In this document: positions 3,799 to 23,346 of the stretch, in pieces
Layout of the letters: each line of letters starts with the position of its first letter
Position numbering within the stretch: position 1 is the first letter of the stretch
DNA from: a virus
DNA length: 24,585 nt
Strand: one strand, 5' to 3'
IMG/VR virus record: IMGVR_UViG_3300025671_000504
Location: 1-24,585 of that record
Program-made: the position numbers and the translations under genes
Notes under the pieces: model-generated
What the model saw: the letters and a program-made list of their open reading frames with translations, nothing else
What the model was told of the DNA's origin: nothing
The model's database searches: none

Positions 3799-4307
3799 AA
3801 TGCATCCCCTATTCTCTTCAGATTTTCTTTGCTCCAAAAAACCATGCCACTATTACAATGATCTTTTGGTTTGCAACGGTGGTTTTCATTATTTTTCAAA
3901 AACTCTAAATCGTTAAAAAATAATCCAGACTCACTTTTATCTGAATCTTTCGCAGCGCCTCCTCTATGATTAAAAAATAAATAGATCGGGATTTTCGTTT
4001 TCTGCGACAAAAATATGTAGTCTTGGTAGTGCTTCAAATCTATCCCAGTTGTCCACCTTTGCGTGTTGCGATGCCAAGTGAACGCCTCTTTGTTTTTCGA
4101 CTCTATAAAACAAATATTAGAATCTGGTTTGATGCACAACATATCAGGCGCAATCAATGGCTTTTCGTTTATGAACAATGCTGGCCCTGCATACTCGCTC
4201 TTTTCTATTTCATAAACAGGCAACACATAATTACCCCGAGCCTGCAACCACTTTGATATGGCGCTTTCAGCAACTTTCCCGAAACTCAATGATTGTTCAA
4301 ATGACAT
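3792..4307 (-). CDS. PD-(D/E)XK nuclease-like protein
   Basis: 171 aa from ATG 4307; an ATG at 4370 would add 21 residues that lie wholly inside the methyltransferase gene. The core reads APDMLCI (Pro54-Asp55) then a strand ending FIESK (Glu69, Lys71), the classic PD-(D/E)XK layout. It is followed by a conserved-looking TWHRNTQRWTTGIDLKHY block. The N-terminus (SFGKVAESAISKWLQARG) resembles the helix that opens many such nucleases. It overlaps the methyltransferase by 11 nt and the helicase by 7 nt, so the three are made together. Possible roles: Holliday-junction or flap cleavage, host DNA degradation, or a restriction-like function. Confidence 0.65.
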   Translation of the reverse strand: MSFEQSLSFGKVAESAISKWLQARGNYVLPVYEIEKSEYAGPALFINEKPLIAPDMLCIKPDSNICFIESKNKEAFTWHRNTQRWTTGIDLKHYQDYIFLSQKTKIPIYLFFNHRGGAAKDSDKSESGLFFNDLEFLKNNENHRCKPKDHCNSGMVFWSKENLKRIGDALC

Positions 4308-5349
4308 GGGGAACCATGACAAAGCCAAACGACTCAAAACGCTTGCTGAATTTATGAACATCATTGCCAAAATAAAAAATAGCTTGGCCTTGTGTGGGCG
4401 CTGCTTTCTGTCCCTCTGGGCTTAGAAACCCAATCCTACCTTTGGTAAAACAAATCGCGGCACATCGGCTTTGAGCAGCATGGAACCACTTTGTGTCAGT
4501 ATAATTATGAGTCAACAGAATAGCCTCTGGAACATTCTGACTTTTTATTTCTTCAATTAGCTTTTCTATGAATTGCCCAATCTGCGGCTGTGAATATGGT
4601 GGGTTCAACCATACTCGTCCCTGCCAATCCCTTGATAAACCATCATCATCGATGGAGTAGAACTTTTTAGCTTTAACCGTAATGTTCGCAATTTCTGAAG
4701 ATGCAGGATCTAAATCAATTACATCCAAGACTTCTTTAGCTGCTTCTATATATTCCTTCGGTGTGTACCATTCATTCTGCCCTGTACCTTGAGTTCCTCT
4801 AATTTTTTTGACTTCTTGGCGTATTTCTGATTCGCTGAGACTGGCTACATACTTTTGTTCTTCTGGAGACAGTGCCAAAAGATTCTTGGCAGCACTAACG
4901 GACACCTTGCCAGACTCAACCGCCTGCTTTAGCTCAGGCTCGCCTTCTTTCGCTACCTGGCGGGCCGTTGCTGTGCTTCTTGGGGACACGTTCATCATTG
5001 CAGCGGCAGCGTCAATGGTTACGGAAGACTGCAAATTTGCAGTCTTTTTACCCACCTCTAAATTAGCAATCGACTGAGCAACCATCGCTTTCTGGCTTTC
5101 GCTTAAATGCCTTCTCTTCAGGTTGAGGCTAATAACAAAACTTAAAGGATCATCTCCTTTATACTCTTCGTAGATCGGTAAAACTTCTGCTACTTGACAT
5201 GCTTGGAACCTGTTTCGTCCATCAAGAATTTTTTCCTGATAGACGATAATGCTTTCTTGTTGTCCGTTTTGTTTGATGTCATTTCCTAGCTCTTGAATCT
5301 CAGATTCAGACATCATTGGAAATATGTTTGCTAATTCGTGATATTCCAT
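4297..5349 (-). CDS. ParB-like domain fused to a Dam-type (N6-adenine) DNA methyltransferase
   Basis: 350 aa. The N-terminal third (1-105) is a ParB/sulfiredoxin-like domain with ILDGRNR (41-47), the signature nucleotide-binding loop. A helical linker with a possible HTH follows (about 110-165). The C-terminal part is a phage Dam-type methyltransferase: NEWYTP (192-197), DLDPAS (212-217) and the catalytic NPPYS (249-253). The predicted product is N6-methyladenine in phage or host DNA, which could protect against restriction or time replication. ATG at 5349 follows AAGGGA. It is the first gene of a block with the nuclease and helicase. Target sequence cannot be read from the protein. Confidence 0.85.
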   Translation of the reverse strand: MEYHELANIFPMMSESEIQELGNDIKQNGQQESIIVYQEKILDGRNRFQACQVAEVLPIYEEYKGDDPLSFVISLNLKRRHLSESQKAMVAQSIANLEVGKKTANLQSSVTIDAAAAMMNVSPRSTATARQVAKEGEPELKQAVESGKVSVSAAKNLLALSPEEQKYVASLSESEIRQEVKKIRGTQGTGQNEWYTPKEYIEAAKEVLDVIDLDPASSEIANITVKAKKFYSIDDDGLSRDWQGRVWLNPPYSQPQIGQFIEKLIEEIKSQNVPEAILLTHNYTDTKWFHAAQSRCAAICFTKGRIGFLSPEGQKAAPTQGQAIFYFGNDVHKFSKRFESFGFVMVPHVI

Positions 5350-12795: not shown

Positions 12796-12990
12796 CTATC
12801 GATCAATAAATCCATATTGCTGATATGTATTTGTGTCTGCATCAAACGCACTGAGCCAAAAATAAAGTATATCAGTCCTTCCTGAACATGATTCCTTCAA
12901 TAATCTAATTGATTCATTTGCTTCTGGGGCTGTGTTGCAATCCTCATGAAACACATCCTCGTTTTCAGTTCTATATCCGACTTTGATCAT
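12796..12990 (-). CDS. Hypothetical small protein between tip and fibre genes (64 aa)
   Basis: ATG at 12990 overlaps the stop of the tip protein as ATGA, so it is probably translated by the same ribosomes. The sequence is polar with a mixed alpha/beta pattern (ESIRLLKESC, DILYFWLSAFDADTNTYQQYGFID). No motif or family recognised. Position suggests an accessory to the tip or fibre, such as a chaperone or a superinfection factor, but there is no direct evidence. Confidence 0.5.
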   Translation of the reverse strand: MIKVGYRTENEDVFHEDCNTAPEANESIRLLKESCSGRTDILYFWLSAFDADTNTYQQYGFIDR

Positions 12991-15900
12991 GCGTAATTAC
13001 CAATAACCCCTGTTGCCCTTAGAAATGTAATGGTTATGTTTGATGCGCTAGTATTCCTCTGGGCCGAAATTCTGACATCAGTCGCCGTATTCGTAGGGCC
13101 AAGACCATAGGTGATTGGAAGTGTCTGATAACTGGTGCTTCCATCAGCAGGCAAATATGGTGATAAATAAGTAGTAAATCCAACTTCTACCCATGTTCCA
13201 GCAGATGTGAATTTATCTACATTATGATATACATTATTTGATACCGAAAAAATCGGATTAGTAGACGAAACTTTGATGATTGTTCTATTTGACACACTGT
13301 CATAGTAGACAGCAAAAACAGAACCAGGGCCATTTGTGGAACTTCCATCGCTGGTAGAATCAACGCTTCCGCTAGAATCAATTAATCCAGTGACATTTCC
13401 GCTTATTTCTATTCTTTGAATTACAGAACTTTCTGAACTAATCGCTACAACAGTCCCGATCAATGTACTAGATGATCCTTTGCTTTTCCTTTGAATCCTG
13501 GTTGACCATGGAGTTATATCTGATGTTCCTCCTGATGAAATACTAGCGGAATAGGTAACATTTGCTTGGATAAAGTTTCTTTTCGTTAATGAAAGCTCTG
13601 TCGCTGGAATGGAAAACTCAGCCAACGTAGTCAATGACAAAGGAACAGAAACGCCTCCTGTTGCATATATTTGCAACGGATAGACTTCAGTGACATCACC
13701 TTGCAATTTAGTGACAGTTAGTGTCCCATCAATGATGATATCGCCAGTAAAAAAGTCTGATTTCTCTACCCACGCTCCGCCTGAGTAAACATACATCGTT
13801 GATACTTCAGGGCTAGACGTTGTATTGACTACTACTAGAACATCGTTAGTCCGTGGATCTCTTCCGAATTGGGTATTGAATGTAGTGTTATCAGGCGCAG
13901 ATACATCATCACCACCAGCAGTGGTTTCATATCTGAAGAAAGCATTATTATTAGTATTGCTTATCTGATCATCAGTATCAGTTAAGGTGGCACCTGAAGA
14001 CAGAGTAAACGATGCGGCAGTCACATCACCGCTAACTGTTAAATCTGTTCCGTCAAAAGATAGCTTGTCCTGTAGGCTGAATTGCCCAGTATTGTCTAAA
14101 TAAAACCCCGTATCGGCGTTATTGAAATTACCCGTTCCTTGGTATAGCGATGTGCTAGTTATGGTAACAGGCCCAGCAGTACCCGATGTGATATCATCCC
14201 CAGGCTGAATTGCTGTATCAGCACCATCTAGGCTTGTTTGAACAGATGGATCTAAGTCTGTTTTCGGAATACTAATTCCAGATAACGTAAGGCTTGTAGC
14301 TGTAATTTCACCAGTTATCGTCGCATTAGTCGCAGTTAAAGCCCCTGCTGCGGTGACTCTAAACGGTGCTGATGCGAATGTCTCGTTCCCTAGCTGAATC
14401 CCTTCAGAACTAGCCTTGAAGAAACTAGCCCCAGAACCTACCTGAAGCGCAACGTCAGATATCGTCGTTCCAGTGGTTAATAGATCACCGTCTACCTGGA
14501 CATCAGTTCCAAGGAAGATCTTCTGAGAAGTAACCGTGAACGGTTGGATGGGTGCTAACGCAGTAGATGCTGGATCAACGATAGAGAATTGATCAGCAAT
14601 GACTACAAATTCACTGAATGCAGGATCTGTCGTATCTGTTGGAAGTGTAGACGCTAAACCAAATCCTGCGATGCGCCCGTTATTGTCAATCTTGACGGTA
14701 TAGTTAGCCTCAATGCCATCAATAGAATCAGCTTGAGTTGAAATAAGGGCAGAGTTATCGCCAACGTCAGTTTGCAACGTTGTGATATCTGCCGCTTGTG
14801 ATGTTATTGATCCTTCTGCTGTAGTGACTCTAGTAGTCAAACTACTCAATCCTGTCGCAGTCGCACTAACCCCAGTAGACGGATCATTCACCGTAGACTG
14901 CAAAGCCGTGATCTGGCTTGCCTGAGTAGTGATAGAGCTTTCGTTTGCAGTAGTCCTAACGTCTAGGGCTTGGGTAGCTGCTGATTGGCCTGATACATAT
15001 TCAGTCAAGACGTTTAGATCAACGTCAGTTCCAGTCTCAGTGGTTAGCTGTCCACCTGTCTCGTCTTTAACCTTAGTCCTGAACTCAAGATCTTGAGTAA
15101 ATGACGCATCCAGCGTAATGATTGCTGATGAATTGGTATCTATATCTGATTCAGTCGTATCGACTCGGGTAGTTAGTGCAGAAAGCCCTGAAGCTGTCGC
15201 AGCCACGCCTGTAGAGGCGTCATTAACCGTTGTCTCTAGTGCGGTGATATCTGATGCATTAGCTGTGATATTGCCTTCAGCAGTAGTGACTCGGGTATCT
15301 AGTCCTGAGATTGCGCCTGCATTTGTGGTGATATTGCCTTCAGCAGTCGTTAGATCAGCCTGAAGCTCAGTGATGTCTGAAGACTGTGAAGTAATCGTCC
15401 CTTCAGCGGTTGTAACTCTAGTGGTTAAATTTGATAACCCTGTCGCATTAGCCACCACACCTGTTGATGCATCGTTGACCGTAGTCTCAAGGGCTGTGAC
15501 ATCCGATGAGATGCTTGTGATGGAATTGCCCTGGTTAGTGACAGTCGTATCTAAAACAGATATCGCACTAGCATTCGCGGTAACGTTTGAATTCGTCGTA
15601 GTCAATGACGATTGCAGATTAGTGATATCCGCTTCATTCTGGCCGATACGGGGATCTTCTAAGTCCTGCCAAGCACTACCATCCCAATAATAAGGATGAT
15701 TGTTATCGTCTGAGTCGTACCATCTTGAAAAATCAGGGATAGGATCTGAGACGCCGCCGACGCCTGCTACTGGAGCCGTAGCTTGGACGTAGACTTCACC
15801 TACACCAGTCGTTAGATCGACAACGACATCTTGAAGACTAGATAAGCTGTTTGAAACAGACGTGATTGATGCATTTAAAATCGCATTCTGATCACTGACG

Positions 15901-18347
15901 TAGATCGCAACATCGCCTAGATTCTGGATGTCTACATCTGCGCCCGTCTCTAAATCTAAGACATCCCCTGCCTCTACTTCTACCAGAAGGATATCTTGAG
16001 CAAGGATAGAGTTCTTAACGTCTGTCTCGCCTAGAACAGTAATCCCATCGGTGTCATAAAGATCAGTACCAACGGTAGCACCAGCCGTAGCGTTATCTTC
16101 TGGCGCATTGGTAGAACCTGCAACATCAGACCATTCTACTCTTCCTACTGTAGCGAAGACTGTCGTATTAGGATCAGCGTTTGGTTCTAGGTTGGAGACA
16201 ACAGAATCATCTGTAGCTGTACCAGTACCAGATCCTGCTCCTGTTGCCGTAAATTTTAAACCTACGGTATTCGCAGAAGCCCCAATTGCGGTGAAGTCTG
16301 TCGTTCCAATCGTTGCAATTGTGTATGTAGACCCAACGATAAAATTCCCAGCAGTTACTGCGTTTTTTGAATTCTTAACTGCTCTGACCCAATAGTAACG
16401 AGTATCACCAGGACTTACTGAGTCAATGCCGTTAGCAAAGTCATGAATAAACTGAGTCCCGTCCGTTTCACCAATCTTTACTGCTGATGAGAAGTTGCCA
16501 TTCGGTGATGCGTAGACATAGATAGATTCGTAGTCTTTGTTGTTGGGTGGATTAACCCAATCCAATTCGACGTTCTTTAGACCAGCGGTAGCGCTTAGAC
16601 CAGATGGGCTAGGGACTCCACGGAATCCAGGCGTAATGTCACCAGTAGCAGTGATTGTAGAGTAGTCTCCGACAGCAGGATCTGCGTAAGACGTGGAAGA
16701 ATCTTCGCGTAATGTAAGATTGACACCACCTTCTTCACTGAACGTCCATCCTAGACACTGGAATACTTTGTTAGACCAGCTTAATTCCTCAATAGATACT
16801 TGAACCCTATCCCCGACAGCAACACGCATCGCTGATAGATTCGCGGGGAAAGTAACGATTTTTTGCTGATCGGAAAGCTGGATTAACTTGTTAGAAATCC
16901 GCTGCGCCATGTAGGACGAATTCGTCATATTTAGCGCAATTTCTTTGTCTAAGACTTCACCATTGTCTCTAGTGACAGCATCCGCTAGTTGTACCTCTGG
17001 GAATTCAGTGGACTTGTAGTTTTGACTAGGATCAATGAAGACCCCTTTGATCGTGTTGAAGCGATCACCACGTTCCAGAGATGTTTTAATCGATAATCCA
17101 GAGATCAGATCATCTTCATTCAGGCTTATCGCTGGTGCTTCGTAGATCCCAGCACGCATGACATACTTTCCATTCACATAGGAAAGCATTCCGTTCATTG
17201 AACTTAGGATCTTGTTGATATTCGTTCTATGAGAATCAGTACCAAACAGGACACCGTTACATGTAAACCTGGACTCAGAACCTCCTGGGACTGGAACGGA
17301 AACATCACAACCATCAGCGGCTGTTACTACTGCAGGCCAGTCAATCTTAGACGCTGGGATGCCCATGCCATAATGCGGAATTGATGCCTTGCCAGTTCCA
17401 GTCCCAGCGCCAGTAGCTTTAAATTTAAGACCTACAGTATTGGAATCAGCGCCAATCAATGTGAAATCTGTATCACCTACATACTCAATCTTATAATCAA
17501 CGCCAGTGACAAATGTTCCTGCGTCTTTGATGTCTACGTTTATCAAATAATCTAATAAACACAGCGCTGGGTTAGTTGAATATGTCCAAGTTGATGGATC
17601 ATAAACCCTATGTGTGCCTGATCCAGATATGTCAATTTGAGTAGAATCTAACCGTGGATCATAGAGCTTCTTTCCTTGAACCAGAGCCTTGATGTTTTGT
17701 GGGGTATATTTATCCCAAGTCTCTTGAGAATCTTCGTCTAACGTCCATTTGGTGACGACGTAGGCGATTCCCTTGCCTTGGTGGGCAGATGTCCATCCTG
17801 TGAAAGCTGCAACAAGATCACTATCTTCTGTCTGTGTGGACGTTCCTAGATACTTGTTGATTTTGACAATCGTTTTTGAGTTCTTAGGCCCAAAGATCCC
17901 AGAGCCTGTAACGTTGCCACTATAATCTGGTGATGTACCAATATCGGTTTGCTGGATAACAACATCATCAAAATGCATATCCGTTATAGCATTGACTTCA
18001 TGGCCTGCTAAGGCGATGGCATAATAGAGATCTTTGTTATCAGTATTAGCCGTACCGACAAATGCAATAGGCCCAGATACAAGAGTCTGACCATAGATAA
18101 TCTTATAAGGTTCGGTAGTAGACTTAACGGTAGCTTGACGTGATCGATCAGTGTCTATCTTGGGCATTTCTACTTCAAAGAGGCCCATGACTTTCTTAGC
18201 AGCCAACGCTCCAGCAACAACAACCGCTGCACCTATAGCAGCAGCGCCGAGACTAAATACACCCGCCGCAGCCGCCCAGCCGCCTACTGCGCCAAGCGTT
18301 GCAAAAGCACCGATTTTGGTTAATAAGATTCCTACTGCTGGTGCCAT
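12987..18347 (-). CDS. Tail tip / host-specificity protein (lambda gpJ-like), 1,786 aa
   Basis: Numbering is from ATG 18347 (a TTG at 18356 is less likely). Residues 1-55 are Ala/Gly-rich and hydrophobic. About 60-550 form the J-like tip hub, with PALCLLDYL and GMGIPASKIDW. A fibronectin-III-like domain follows at about 578-659. Two copies of a 48-residue module lie at 275-322 and 664-712. Residues 898-1213 are a repeat-rich coiled coil. Then comes NNGRIAGFGLA...FVVIADQFSIV (DUF1983-like, about 1222-1258), and a Ser/Thr-rich beta C-terminus, probably the receptor-binding end. It closes the tail and contacts the host. ATGA overlap with the next gene. Confidence 0.85.
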   Translation of the reverse strand: MAPAVGILLTKIGAFATLGAVGGWAAAAGVFSLGAAAIGAAVVVAGALAAKKVMGLFEVEMPKIDTDRSRQATVKSTTEPYKIIYGQTLVSGPIAFVGTANTDNKDLYYAIALAGHEVNAITDMHFDDVVIQQTDIGTSPDYSGNVTGSGIFGPKNSKTIVKINKYLGTSTQTEDSDLVAAFTGWTSAHQGKGIAYVVTKWTLDEDSQETWDKYTPQNIKALVQGKKLYDPRLDSTQIDISGSGTHRVYDPSTWTYSTNPALCLLDYLINVDIKDAGTFVTGVDYKIEYVGDTDFTLIGADSNTVGLKFKATGAGTGTGKASIPHYGMGIPASKIDWPAVVTAADGCDVSVPVPGGSESRFTCNGVLFGTDSHRTNINKILSSMNGMLSYVNGKYVMRAGIYEAPAISLNEDDLISGLSIKTSLERGDRFNTIKGVFIDPSQNYKSTEFPEVQLADAVTRDNGEVLDKEIALNMTNSSYMAQRISNKLIQLSDQQKIVTFPANLSAMRVAVGDRVQVSIEELSWSNKVFQCLGWTFSEEGGVNLTLREDSSTSYADPAVGDYSTITATGDITPGFRGVPSPSGLSATAGLKNVELDWVNPPNNKDYESIYVYASPNGNFSSAVKIGETDGTQFIHDFANGIDSVSPGDTRYYWVRAVKNSKNAVTAGNFIVGSTYTIATIGTTDFTAIGASANTVGLKFTATGAGSGTGTATDDSVVSNLEPNADPNTTVFATVGRVEWSDVAGSTNAPEDNATAGATVGTDLYDTDGITVLGETDVKNSILAQDILLVEVEAGDVLDLETGADVDIQNLGDVAIYVSDQNAILNASITSVSNSLSSLQDVVVDLTTGVGEVYVQATAPVAGVGGVSDPIPDFSRWYDSDDNNHPYYWDGSAWQDLEDPRIGQNEADITNLQSSLTTTNSNVTANASAISVLDTTVTNQGNSITSISSDVTALETTVNDASTGVVANATGLSNLTTRVTTAEGTITSQSSDITELQADLTTAEGNITTNAGAISGLDTRVTTAEGNITANASDITALETTVNDASTGVAATASGLSALTTRVDTTESDIDTNSSAIITLDASFTQDLEFRTKVKDETGGQLTTETGTDVDLNVLTEYVSGQSAATQALDVRTTANESSITTQASQITALQSTVNDPSTGVSATATGLSSLTTRVTTAEGSITSQAADITTLQTDVGDNSALISTQADSIDGIEANYTVKIDNNGRIAGFGLASTLPTDTTDPAFSEFVVIADQFSIVDPASTALAPIQPFTVTSQKIFLGTDVQVDGDLLTTGTTISDVALQVGSGASFFKASSEGIQLGNETFASAPFRVTAAGALTATNATITGEITATSLTLSGISIPKTDLDPSVQTSLDGADTAIQPGDDITSGTAGPVTITSTSLYQGTGNFNNADTGFYLDNTGQFSLQDKLSFDGTDLTVSGDVTAASFTLSSGATLTDTDDQISNTNNNAFFRYETTAGGDDVSAPDNTTFNTQFGRDPRTNDVLVVVNTTSSPEVSTMYVYSGGAWVEKSDFFTGDIIIDGTLTVTKLQGDVTEVYPLQIYATGGVSVPLSLTTLAEFSIPATELSLTKRNFIQANVTYSASISSGGTSDITPWSTRIQRKSKGSSSTLIGTVVAISSESSVIQRIEISGNVTGLIDSSGSVDSTSDGSSTNGPGSVFAVYYDSVSNRTIIKVSSTNPIFSVSNNVYHNVDKFTSAGTWVEVGFTTYLSPYLPADGSTSYQTLPITYGLGPTNTATDVRISAQRNTSASNITITFLRATGVIGNYA
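14709..15659 (-). repeat. Coiled-coil repeat block in the tip protein
   Basis: Heptad-rich segments of the kind LTTRVTTAEGxIT and (D)IxALxTTVND recur. A longer unit, AL-[EQ]-[ST]-TVND-[AP]-STGV followed by GLS-LTTRV, occurs three times (protein residues about 950, 1036 and 1147). The copies differ in sequence, so they are old or shuffled duplications. The block forms a long trimeric or dimeric stalk between the tip hub and the C-terminal region. Confidence 0.65.
16212..16358 (-). repeat. GTTDFT module copy 4 (in tip protein, after the FN3-like domain)
   Basis: Residues about 664-712: TAGNFIVGSTYTIATIG, then TTDFTAIGASANTVGLKF, then TATGAGSGTGTAT. It sits between YYWVRAVKNSKNA and VVSNLEP, which would otherwise join as the end of a fibronectin-type domain. 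See the finding on the four copies. Confidence 0.7.
17382..17525 (-). repeat. GTTDFT module copy 3 (in tip protein hub)
   Basis: Residues about 275-322: DAGTFVTGVDYKIEYVG, then DTDFTLIGADSNTVGLKF, then KATGAGTGTGKAS. It interrupts the hub between LLDYLINVDIK and PHYGMGIPASKIDW, sequences that are adjacent in related J-like proteins as I recall them. Confidence 0.7.
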
Positions 18348-18721
18348 AAATCCCAACCTGATGCGATATGTTCTTCAGGAATTCTAATCATTCCCTTGTG
18401 AACTAAACAGACTGCTGTATTGCCTAGTTTAACGCCCATCACTTGGCCTTGAGGCGTTTTTACAATGACGGGGCTACCATCCTTTAAAGATTTTATATCC
18501 TCTGTAGGAGGCCCCAAAACGCTTGCAGCAGTGTCTTCCAGATCACCAAAGTCTTTAATAATAGACTCAGCATCTGTCTCAGAATTATAGTGGAAATCGG
18601 CTAGATAGTCTTTGCCTGTTAGCTCTTTAACAATGAAACCTGCGAACTGACAGCAATCTACTGAACCGTAATCAAAGTCTTTTCTTTCCCACTTATTCAG
18701 GGCTTGCAAGACTTGAATCAT
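18332..18721 (-). CDS. DUF6950-like / NlpC-P60-type tail peptidase-like protein
   Basis: 129 aa. YGSVDCCQFAGFIVKELTG (18-36) carries Cys23-Cys24 at the start of a helix, the placement of the NlpC/P60 nucleophile. A GVKLGNTAVCLVHKGMIRIP strand pair and a final SGWDLW follow, as in DUF6950 proteins. I do not see the usual catalytic His, so it may be structural rather than active. In phages and gene transfer agents this gene sits just before the tip protein and helps cross the cell wall or complete the tip. It overlaps the tip protein gene. Confidence 0.65.
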   Translation of the reverse strand: MIQVLQALNKWERKDFDYGSVDCCQFAGFIVKELTGKDYLADFHYNSETDAESIIKDFGDLEDTAASVLGPPTEDIKSLKDGSPVIVKTPQGQVMGVKLGNTAVCLVHKGMIRIPEEHIASGWDLWHQQ

Positions 18722-19497
18722 GCCATTTCGCGGCGTTCTTTGATGTCGCCTGGAGTCTGTGGGTTATCTACTGGGCCTTGTCCACCTTCTGATGCGCCCC
18801 ATTTAATCTTAGCGCCTTCAACTTTGTGAATATGACTAAAGAACAAATCGCCTGCATACCTTTGCTGTTGATTAGCATTGGTGTACATCAGGTTCTTAGA
18901 CTTATCAAATCGTGATAACTCAGACTCAGCAATAAGCTGGATAGCATCCCCGCCATCAGCACCGACTGTCAGATTCATCTGATCCATCAGCCCTTCCCAT
19001 ATCTGGGTAGGCGTATCGATCAAAACATCATCAGAATCTAAGACGCCAAGATAAACTGTAACAGGACGCATGAAGTAATCTTCAGTCAGCGCCGCGCCTG
19101 ACATCGTGGCATCTAATCCTGATAACGTAAGAGTAATCGCATAGGGGCTAACGTCCGTCCCTTCTTCTACCCTTGAGATAGAACCTAAGTCTCCGACGCC
19201 TAGCCAATTTGAAGTTGCCGTACCAGTTCCAGTGCCTGCACCTGTCGCTTGAAATGTGACACCTACGGTATTTGAACTAGCTCCAATTAAAGTGAAGTCA
19301 GTCGTTCCTACTGCTTCAATAGTGTATTGGACATCTATTTCAAAAGATCCAGCAGTAACTGATCCCCAAGAATAAGTCCCAAGGCCATTATGGACATAAA
19401 GCGTCCCAGACGGAAACTCCAGTTTGGCGAACATGACCAGATTAACATTCTGGGCCTGAAGCGCTGTATTAACCGCTGAAGAAAAGCCCCTTGTCAT
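18718..19497 (-). CDS. Tail tip hub / minor tail protein with inserted GTTDFT module
   Basis: 259 aa. The opening (SSAVNTALQAQNVNLVMFAKLEFPSG) and WLGVGDLGSISRVEEGTD, then ITLTLSGLD and RPVTVYLGVLD, resemble hub proteins of the DUF2163 type that lie before the peptidase-like gene. Residues 47-96 are the GTTDFT module, inserted between LGTYSWGS and NWLGVGDLG; without it, the remaining parts would be contiguous. ATGA overlaps at both ends tie it to its neighbours. Likely a baseplate-like ring at the tail tip. Confidence 0.65.
   Translation of the reverse strand: MTRGFSSAVNTALQAQNVNLVMFAKLEFPSGTLYVHNGLGTYSWGSVTAGSFEIDVQYTIEAVGTTDFTLIGASSNTVGVTFQATGAGTGTGTATSNWLGVGDLGSISRVEEGTDVSPYAITLTLSGLDATMSGAALTEDYFMRPVTVYLGVLDSDDVLIDTPTQIWEGLMDQMNLTVGADGGDAIQLIAESELSRFDKSKNLMYTNANQQQRYAGDLFFSHIHKVEGAKIKWGASEGGQGPVDNPQTPGDIKERREMA
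19210..19359 (-). repeat. GTTDFT module copy 2 (in the 259-aa hub protein)
   Basis: Residues 47-96: VTAGSFEIDVQYTIEAVG, then TTDFTLIGASSNTVGVTF, then QATGAGTGTGTAT. The protein pattern matches the other copies while codon choice differs. Confidence 0.75.
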
Positions 19498-20270
19498 GCC
19501 AAGACATCCTCAATAGCTTCTATTGTAAAGTTAGATACTCGTCCTGGCCTTGTATCCCATGAAGCAGTAGACATAACGATCATCACTGCTAGAGGCGTGA
19601 CGAAGTTAATAGGATCGTTGTCATCAGGCGACTTCCTAAGTGGAGGAGCTATAGGAATCGTGATTTCACCTAGTCCATCAGTAGAGCAATCAGCCGTGAC
19701 AATGTGGAACTCGTTGTTAAACGCTATGTAGTCACCAGCCTTAAAGTAGTCCGTGTTAGTCAAATCAGCACCGTCTGCGATTAAACTAGAACCAGTCTGG
19801 CTTGCGCCTTTAACCTGAATACCGACAGTGACAACTGTTCCTGTTCCTGTTCCTGCGCCTGTAGCTTGAAAAACAACTCCTACAGTATTTGATGATGCAC
19901 CAATAGCCGTGAAATCTGTTGTCCCAACGAAAGTGATTTTATAAGTTATGCCAATAACCAAAGATCCTGCGGTTAAACTTGTAACAGAATCCCCGCTAGG
20001 CGCATTACCTGATCGGTTATAACCGTAGTCGGTGAAATACATCCTATGGACTTGTCCATCTAACTTAGCCAGGAATGCTTGCATCTTGGCCCTATCAGCG
20101 CCTTGTAGATTGTTAAACGTCGCAGTGGTCTTCCAGTAAGAACCTTTTCTAGTCTGCGTTTGAACAGCATTGGTCAGCGGAGACTGGAACATCTTAGTAT
20201 TCGTTACCAGTTCCCAAGTCTGCGTAGTCGGAGTTACACCTACCTCTGTGGCGAAGTTATAAGTTGTCAT
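19494..20270 (-). CDS. Distal tail (Dit-like) / minor tail protein with inserted GTTDFT module
   Basis: 258 aa, directly after the tape measure, where distal tail proteins are encoded. The N-terminus (WELVTNTKMFQSPLTNAVQT) and FNNLQGADRAKMQAFLAKLDGQVHRMYFTDYGY look like a tail-ring fold. The C-terminus (ITIPIAPPLR, then SWDTRPGRVSNFTIEAIEDVL) has the pattern of a common family of phage proteins at this position. Residues 99-147 are the GTTDFT module. Both ends overlap neighbours as ATGA. The exact ring (Dit or hub) is inferred from gene order. Confidence 0.6.
   Translation of the reverse strand: MTTYNFATEVGVTPTTQTWELVTNTKMFQSPLTNAVQTQTRKGSYWKTTATFNNLQGADRAKMQAFLAKLDGQVHRMYFTDYGYNRSGNAPSGDSVTSLTAGSLVIGITYKITFVGTTDFTAIGASSNTVGVVFQATGAGTGTGTVVTVGIQVKGASQTGSSLIADGADLTNTDYFKAGDYIAFNNEFHIVTADCSTDGLGEITIPIAPPLRKSPDDNDPINFVTPLAVMIVMSTASWDTRPGRVSNFTIEAIEDVLA
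19830..19976 (-). repeat. GTTDFT module copy 1 (in the 258-aa minor tail protein)
   Basis: Residues 99-147: LTAGSLVIGITYKITFVG, then TTDFTAIGASSNTVGVVF, then QATGAGTGTGTVV. It lies between NAPSGDSVTS and VGIQVKGASQ, that is, in a loop after the first half of the protein. Confidence 0.75.
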
Positions 20271-22042: not shown

Positions 22043-22504
22043 CTTTTATCTCAAAATATGATGTCCAACCTTGGAATTCGACCAAACTCATTTCCATAAT
22101 TTCATCCACAGTTTTATGCAGATGTTCCGCTAACTGGTAGCAGAAGAATAGAGCCTGATCGTTTCTCAGTTTCCCGCTATGTCTTCCGCTTTAGGCTGCA
22201 TATCTGCGATTTCACCAGCAACCCTAATTAGAACATCAGGATCCACTGATCTGACAATCTCAACCTTTTCAGCCTTTTTGAAGCATGGCTCATTGTTGCT
22301 ATCTATCAAATAATAAATAAGCGTTAAAGCCAACCCTTCATCCATCTGGTTTCCAGTGAGCTTTGCCTGGATTTCCATTTTGTTCTTAACGGAAATCTGG
22401 GGACGCACATAATACGTCCCACCCCATTCAGGAATCTCTATTGGCTTCGGATCTGCGCTAAGGACTTCTTGGTAATGTGCTTTAGCTTTATCAAGAATGT
22501 TCAT
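22023..22504 (-). CDS. Tail assembly chaperone GT, made by a -1 ribosomal frameshift (gpGT-like)
   Basis: The G frame (112 aa) ends GGA AAC TGA. A -1 slip at GGGAAAC (22175..22169) opens a 48-codon extension from 22169 to the TAG at 22023. Translated, it reads LRNDQALFFCYQLAEHLHK, then TVDEIMEMSLVEFQGWTSYFE and ends NKSR. EFQGW...YFE is typical of T-domains of tail chaperones. The product is about 160 aa. As in lambda, the G and GT forms would bind the tape measure and recruit tail tube protein. The extension is not annotated as a start-codon frame and is easily missed. Confidence 0.85.
22166..22504 (-). CDS. Tail assembly chaperone G (unshifted product)
   Basis: 112 aa, starting as TAATG with the tail tube stop. 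WGGTYYVRPQISVKNKMEIQAKL, LTLIYYLIDSNNEPCFKKAEK and a helical end match small alpha-helical tail chaperones between tail tube and tape measure genes. They are abundant but absent from the mature tail. The last codons form the slippery site, and the stop follows at once. Confidence 0.8.
   Translation of the reverse strand: MNILDKAKAHYQEVLSADPKPIEIPEWGGTYYVRPQISVKNKMEIQAKLTGNQMDEGLALTLIYYLIDSNNEPCFKKAEKVEIVRSVDPDVLIRVAGEIADMQPKAEDIAGN
22169..22175 (-). other. Slippery heptamer GGGAAAC for -1 frameshifting
   Basis: In the G frame it reads G-GGA-AAC, the X-XXY-YYZ form, with TGA directly after it. Lambda uses GGGAAAG at the same place. The re-read frame encodes the T-domain. I do not see an obvious strong stem just downstream; the adjacent stop may help the pause. 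Confidence 0.8.
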
Positions 22505-22890
22505 TATACTGTCGTGCTACTTAATGGGCCGCTGCCCTGGAAGGTAATTGATGCTTCAACCATGCCGTCAAACGATGCTGAACGACTAACACCAGTTACC
22601 AAAGCCGTACCAGTGTAATAAGTATCGCCACCAGCATCCCCTTCTGGGTATAAGCCAATAGTTACACTTTCGCCAACTGCCAAAGCCGTTTGACCAGCAT
22701 CAGTTTCGTCCCAATAGACATCAGCAGAACCAGTAAATGATTTCAATGTCGTTTTGAATGTCCGATCAGTCGCCGTCATTTTTGTGTCTTCAACCGTATC
22801 TGCGGTTTGTTCCAATGAAAATGATCTAACTTCTGCGACAGTGGTTCCATCTACCTTGACTACGCCATCTCTTCCAATATGAACAGCCAT
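22504..22890 (-). CDS. Tail tube protein paralogue B
   Basis: 128 aa. MAVHIGRDGVVKVDG, SFSLEQTADTVED, FTGSADVYWDETDAGQTALAVGE and the end SFDGMVEASITFQGSG match phage major tail proteins, forming the hexameric tube. More than half of its aligned residues are identical to the gene just upstream. It lacks the 'STKNDG' insertion and the Pro/Ala loop of the other copy. AAGGAG 8 nt before ATG 22890 is a strong ribosome site. Confidence 0.75.
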   Translation of the reverse strand: MAVHIGRDGVVKVDGTTVAEVRSFSLEQTADTVEDTKMTATDRTFKTTLKSFTGSADVYWDETDAGQTALAVGESVTIGLYPEGDAGGDTYYTGTALVTGVSRSASFDGMVEASITFQGSGPLSSTTV

Positions 22891-22902: not shown

Positions 22903-23346
22903 TTATGGCGCTACTGAATCATAAGCTGTCAGCGCACCGCTACCTTGAAACGTAATTGATGCTTCAACCATTCCATCAAAACTAGCATTCCTGGTAATAC
23001 CTGTCACTATTGCATTGCCTTCATACATCGTATCAGCAGCAACCGCTGGAGGCCCAGCATCTGCGACCGCATCACCTTCTGGGAAAAACTTGATAGTAAT
23101 CTGTGACCCAATAGCCAAGGCAGTTTGACCGCCATCGGTTTCGTCCCAGTATGCGTCAGCAGAGCCAGTAAAAGATGTCAGAGTTGGCAAGAATACTCTA
23201 GCAGTTGAACCCATCGCAGAGTATTCAACAGTGTCCGCAGTTTCTTCAATAGAAAATGATCGCAATTCGCCTAATACGGTTCCATCATTTTTAGTTGATG
23301 TGCCGCCTACTTTGATGATTCCATCACGGCCTATATGAGTAGCCAT
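22903..23346 (-). CDS. Tail tube protein paralogue A
   Basis: 147 aa. Same family as the next gene: HIGRDGIIKVGG, SFSIEETADTVEYSAMG, FTGSADAYWDETDGGQTALAIGS, SFDGMVEASITFQGSGALT. Extra material is an 8-residue insertion near residue 18 and an Ala/Pro-rich loop (GPPAVAADT). It starts as TAATG with the 56-aa gene and has AAGGAG upstream. Which copy forms the bulk of the tube cannot be told from the sequence. Confidence 0.75.
   Translation of the reverse strand: MATHIGRDGIIKVGGTSTKNDGTVLGELRSFSIEETADTVEYSAMGSTARVFLPTLTSFTGSADAYWDETDGGQTALAIGSQITIKFFPEGDAVADAGPPAVAADTMYEGNAIVTGITRNASFDGMVEASITFQGSGALTAYDSVAP

Follow-up and report, generated by a model that had tools for sequence, protein, structure and literature searches.

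Known Accessory and Mobile Domains

Ig-like accessory domains of phage virion proteins are reportedly the subject of Fraser et al. 2006 (cited in PMC8718954). Accessory domains of this type (Big_1, Big_2 and FN3) are promiscuous, face outward from the virion, and are dispensable in some phages (PMC8718954). Those found in T5, lambda, YSD1 and SPP1 are larger beta-sandwiches, and most of them are C-terminal (PMC8718954). Two other systems are repeats that occur in coding sequence. Rickettsia palindromic elements (RPEs) are palindromic segments of about 150 bp that lie in frame in Rickettsia protein-coding genes, and the peptide they encode is conserved (PMC10969869). PARCELs are protein-coding repeats that have spread from gene to gene and across genomes and clades, commonly within surface proteins; they form 25-residue tandem arrays with dyad symmetry in the DNA (PMC2996958). 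Domain mosaicism, as described by Smug et al. 2023, refers to one fragment common to otherwise unrelated phage proteins and is frequent in tail proteins (PMC10684548). For receptor binding, the domains given there as examples are enzymatic or sit at the N or C terminus (PMC10684548).

The module described here behaves like the promiscuous accessory domains and the mosaic fragments; its likeness to RPEs and PARCELs is superficial. Like the Ig-like domains it is a promiscuous accessory domain on virion proteins, but it is only about 47 residues long, lies inside loops, and has neither a fold match in the PDB nor a Pfam model. It shares with RPEs a length of about 150 bp, an in-frame position and a conserved peptide, whereas it has no palindrome, its DNA is not conserved, and the copies found are all coding. 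In contrast to PARCELs, it is mostly a single folded domain of about 47 residues with no common inverted repeats or dyad symmetry. Compared with the examples described for domain mosaicism, it is a minimal insertion domain that reaches capsid, connector and tail-core proteins. Both marks of a mobile domain were found: a homologous fragment in otherwise unrelated proteins, and presence or absence at a given site among close homologues, with independent gains or losses. The module is regarded here as a new family of mobile insertion domain, akin to the promiscuous accessory domains and absent from the protein family databases searched. That it is mobile as a unit of protein is almost certain.

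The Window and Its Four Copies

The window is the whole stretch of DNA that was analysed, a contig of 24,585 bases from an uncultured siphovirus-like virus. Its module-bearing genes, the gene that lies between them, and the four copies are as follows.

19494..20270, minus strand, Dit/gpM-like distal tail protein, host gene 1, 258 aa (phrog_1302, E 1.1e-41)
18718..19497, minus strand, gpL-like tail protein, host gene 2, 259 aa (phrog_2048, E 3.8e-42)
18332..18721, minus strand, presumed gpK-like protein between the host genes, without a module (DUF6950/phrog_2134)
12987..18356, minus strand, tip/hub protein J, host gene 3, 1789 aa, two modules (phrog_5616, phrog_31)
19821..19974, minus strand, module in the Dit-like protein (core 19833-19970, E 1e-22, independent profile)
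19210..19359, minus strand, module in the gpL-like protein (core 19216-19353, E 6.9e-23, independent profile)
17379..17525, minus strand, module c1 in J (core 17385-17522, E 2.7e-21, independent profile)
16212..16358, minus strand, module c2 in J (core 16215-16352, E 9.7e-22, independent profile)

The product of the DUF6950 gene is probably gpK-like, a role that gene order suggests. By profile, the relatives of J are the T5-type hub protein pb3 (best E 1.1e-26) and lambda gpJ (9.3e-9), and its predicted fold also matches both of them. A surplus of about 50 residues in Dit and gpL is visible in the PHROG alignments: 191 profile positions of phrog_1302 cover 244 residues of the Dit-like protein, and 191 positions of phrog_2048 cover 239 residues of the gpL-like protein. 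Module c2 of J sits close to the end of an FN3-like domain.

The original prediction had placed four copies of one module in these three neighbouring tail genes. All four lie where it had put them, and all are matched by an independent profile, i.e., one built from other virus lineages with the window's own lineage excluded. The four matches are far beyond chance; no fifth copy was detected when the same profile was run against the window in six frames. The consensus of the module, (V)TAGSFVxGxxYxIxxVGTTDFTxIGAxSNTVGVxFTATGxGSGTGTA, is about 47 residues long.

Conservation of Protein and DNA

Codon use had been said to differ between the copies in the window, and it does: the pairwise DNA identity is 60-70%, and the same codon is used at 31-62% of the conserved residues, compared with about 35% for unrelated choice. 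The four copies are therefore not one recent duplication, as had also been proposed.

The same pattern extends to the wider family. When copies whose flanks are unrelated are compared between loci (14,001 pairs), the mean amino acid identity is 67%, a similarity inflated by the retrieval of most loci via exact peptide patterns. In these pairs the same codon occurs at 36% of conserved residues, and 35% is expected from pooled codon use. Every copy found reads in the sense frame of a long ORF. Among the 273 distinct copies in fetched loci, not one is broken by an internal stop codon or confined to a closed ORF shorter than 120 residues, although retrieval by pattern could miss decayed copies. 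Mean identity to the consensus is 77% for the 33 copies in loci fetched via host proteins and 63% for the 63 copies that have no search pattern at all. These 63 retain Tyr11, Ile13, Gly25 and Phe35 at 98-100%. Such conservation argues that selection acts on the protein sequence of the module.

Empty and Filled Sites

Relatives with empty sites were found by scanning with two of the host proteins, the module being left out. The Dit site is empty in L100 and L101 at 96-97% protein identity, the gpL site in L111 and L120, among others, at about 94%, and the J sites in L100, L107, L114 and others at 82-89%. L142 has only c1 filled and L113 only c2; both J sites are empty in L100, L107 and L114. 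In L100 the gpL module is present, and there is none in Dit or in the part of J that is covered. The two junctions at which the module had been thought to interrupt contiguous sequence are borne out by module-free relatives: where the window has WGS|NWLGVG they read NWDS|QDWLGVG, and where it has NVDIK|PHYGMG they read DYLINAD|YGMG. The junctions inspected are clean and in frame at the DNA level, and they show no sign of a mobilising enzyme, a target-site duplication or a fixed target sequence.

The module also enters a given host at different points. There are at least five distinct insertion points in the J family, near model residues 159, 275-322, 454, 641 and 662-712, and a second insertion point exists in Dit (L178). 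All five points in J fall in loops, between predicted secondary-structure elements; most of the host core in this model scores pLDDT 75-94. Tandem modules occur in the gpL-like genes of L109, L194 and L199. In these the first module lacks the Gly-rich end and joins the second directly, as if the module had landed in, or recombined with, another module.

Module carriers make up 27 of the 79 relatives for Dit, 6 of the 90 for gpL and 22 of the 71 for J. The minimum number of presence/absence changes on the host-gene trees is 4 for Dit, 5 for gpL and 11 for J; these are parsimony counts on quick FastTree trees built without the module, with gain and loss not separated. A single loss of an ancestral domain is unlikely, given at least 20 state changes over three genes and the scatter of the sites. 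The same changes, together with sites that stand empty in relatives up to 97% identical, agree with the proposal of a small mobile protein domain that colonises loops of virion proteins, and they are at odds with homologues that always carry it.

One move of the module from gene to gene can be seen in the DNA itself, a result that goes beyond what had been predicted. The Dit gene of L109 is module-free, with 90% and 94% nucleotide identity to the window's Dit gene on either side of the site. In the window the Dit gene carries its module on a 154-bp segment, and L109 has that segment in its gpL-like gene, at 88% nucleotide identity; the shared stretch extends four codons beyond the conserved core of the module. 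L109 and the window thus differ by a DNA-level move of the module between neighbouring genes within one virus lineage, in a direction that cannot be told. Insertions in this family are recent enough to show filled and empty sites plus one relocation between genes.

Predicted Fold and Database Matches

With 112 copies as input, AlphaFold2 folds the module alone at a pLDDT of 97.0 and a pTM of 0.79. The 53-residue model has strands at 2-4, 13-18, 37-39 and 49-52 and a short helix at 24-27. The strands predicted at both ends may suit insertion in a loop if they pair as their order suggests. Modelled inside J, where few alignment rows cover it, the module is of low confidence. Its predicted ability to fold by itself, with insertion points in J that lie between secondary-structure elements, speaks against an integral part of the host core.

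No convincing fold match to the module was found in the PDB (Foldseek gave three matches, with E above 8 and probability ≤0.02), and a second structure aligner gave no match with Z ≥ 2 among 10 chains compared. In a viral structure library, twelve proteins match the module with a probability of 1.00. All are from uncultured Caudovirales phages or Virus NIOZ-UU157, and the matches reach down to 23% identity. None of the PDB sequences, Pfam models or PHROG models covers the module convincingly, an NCBIfam scan of the three host proteins gave nothing on it, and its motif strings gave no match in the open-licence PMC papers searched. A module this small, lacking both a family model and a relative of solved structure, is a compact target for structural and binding work.

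Several known kinds of domain were considered. An Ig-like or FN3 domain, a beta-sandwich of about 80-100 residues, does not fit a 53-residue model of four short strands and a short helix, and the module has no PDB fold match and no Pfam match above the cut-off to support that identity. Carbohydrate or receptor binding, or shielding, had been suggested as a possible role; for a carbohydrate-binding module, Pfam gave no match above the cut-off. An intein is rejected: it would be longer than 100 residues (compared with about 47) and carry splicing residues (Cys/Ser at the N terminus, His, and Asn plus Cys/Ser/Thr at the C terminus), whereas column statistics show no conserved Cys or His. A resemblance to Pfam YjbE, seen in 32 of 112 copies (best E 5.7e-5), is likely compositional and due to the Gly/Thr/Ala-rich end; the window copy scores 15.1 bits, against a cut-off of 27.9.

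Distribution and Host Proteins

At least 551 confirmed relatives were found in a scan of IMG/VR viral contigs. When GenBank phage records were searched by tblastn with several module consensus sequences, 3 of 50,697 carried the module, and only one cultured phage, Cyanophage S-TIM54, is among the carriers. One query against plasmids found no module. About 273 distinct copies are present in the loci that were fetched. Their 216 host ORFs, 177 of them with a single module, fall into 64 unrelated clusters once the module is masked, and in an alignment of 62 representative hosts the module is the sole conserved part. Many unrelated virion proteins carrying the module in loops with clean boundaries had been anticipated; the 64 clusters, the clean in-frame junctions and the loop positions in J are in line with this.

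The annotated host clusters are almost all virion proteins. Examples include the major head protein (L208), head-tail adaptors (L014, L315) and a baseplate wedge (L271), as well as tail tube, sheath, distal tail, tip, fibres, connectors and internal-virion-like proteins (phrog_511). The original prediction had named virion surface proteins as the hosts. This holds for the tail proteins and is too narrow for the major head protein, connectors, sheath and internal-virion-like proteins; the hosts are mostly virion proteins, to which bacterial PilY1, autotransporter and FG-GAP proteins must be added. The core of the phage particle, not just its fibres and spikes, has been repeatedly altered by one small standard part. 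The module can serve as a natural marker of which virion loops accept inserts, and for annotating hundreds of proteins of uncultured viruses.

Bacterial carriers are rare, with 17 loci in GTDB contigs; scans of two bacterial groups found the module in 4 of 388 and 4 of 401 genomes. A Polaromonas PilY1 (L087:7074-11204), encoded beside pilin and housekeeping genes, has two modules. In a PilY1-like protein 60% identical to it (L331), the first module is common to both and the second site is empty; gain or loss of the module therefore also happens in bacteria. Further surface hosts in bacteria are a planctomycete FG-GAP protein (L089), an autotransporter (L329), Ig-like proteins and giant verrucomicrobial ORFs. 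Six copies occur in one verrucomicrobial MAG (G008; L319, L323, L324, L325, L326 and L327), with ORFs of up to 9621 codons. The remaining bacterial loci are prophage-like or of unclear kind, and in one of them (L098) the carrier follows what appears by eye to be a run of phage-tail-like genes.

Possible Role of the Module

In the explanation proposed here, the module would be a self-folding mini-domain of about 47 residues, and its coding segment of about 140-155 bp would be copied, reading frame intact, into those parts of virion-protein genes that encode loops, and at times into genes for bacterial surface proteins. The copying may occur by illegitimate or recombination-mediated DNA transfer. 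Terminal strands, placed there by the predicted strand order, would allow entry to a loop without disrupting the host fold. The module would then be kept because assembled particles gain a weak, multivalent adhesive surface, e.g., for a common envelope or matrix polysaccharide. Taken whole, this account of a mobile in-frame mini-domain retained for weak multivalent adhesion is on balance probable.

Displayed weak adhesion, as the role of the module, is offered tentatively as a best guess. The places where the module occurs suggest it: capsids, fibres and tail tips in phages, and autotransporters and PilY1 pilus-tip proteins in bacteria. Against it, the internal virion protein phrog_511, the head-tail adaptor, Dit and the sheath are not obvious adhesion surfaces, and high conservation with no hypervariable face is not the pattern of an arms race over receptor binding. 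A bolder version makes the module a hitherto undescribed fold and a mobile adhesive cassette of aquatic viruses, able to enter a loop of almost any protein of the particle, to pass from gene to gene within one virus lineage and to be traded with bacterial surface adhesins such as PilY1; this is rather doubtful.

The main rival to adhesion is a tolerated passenger, selfish or near-neutral, which recombination keeps copying and which virions tolerate because it folds alone, with no benefit to the phage and with survival only where it does no harm. Frequent presence/absence changes among close relatives would be expected of such a passenger, as would insertions in differing tolerant loops, those of non-adhesive structural proteins among them, and the module is carried by under half of the relatives in any single host gene. 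However, the protein is strongly conserved at saturated synonymous sites, and none of the 273 copies is decayed, with the same reservation about pattern-based retrieval. The small number of annotated non-virion hosts and the recurrence in bacterial surface proteins also suggest a common benefit. The passenger reading is a serious rival, though less likely than not.

A structural role, with the module acting as a stabiliser or spacer of virion assemblies (through inter-subunit contacts or as a wedge) and binding nothing outside, is considerably less probable still. It would account for modules in ring- or lattice-forming proteins (Dit, gpL, tail tube, sheath, major head protein, adaptors), and there is a precedent in the tail tube protein of phage YSD1, whose inserted beta-domain adds inter-subunit contacts (PMC8718954). 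The host geometries are unrelated, though, and offer no common partner surface, and close relatives manage with no module.

A DNA-level mobile element (a Rickettsia palindromic element or MITE) that is readable in frame by chance is rejected as scarcely credible: while RPEs are similar in size (about 150 bp) and likewise inserted in frame (PMC10969869) and one relocation (L109) is clear at the DNA level, no common inverted repeats were found, the DNA fold is inconsistent (z -2.05 to +1.90 over eight copies), codons are unrelated between copies, and the copies found are all in the sense frame of long ORFs, with no non-coding ones among them.

Other Features of the Window

Some features of the window lie outside the module. 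Adjacent genes at 22504-22890 and 22903-23346 (minus strand) encode very similar proteins, the first of which matches the major tail protein phrog_1407; the pair has the look of a major tail protein gene duplicated in tandem. In J, repeated coiled-coil-like units, TTVNDASTGVxATAxGLSxLTTRVTTAEG, occur from the middle towards the C terminus (14600-15690, minus strand). A 350-residue protein is encoded at 4297-5349 (minus strand); judged by eye, it resembles a ParB-type N-terminal domain fused to a DNA adenine methyltransferase.
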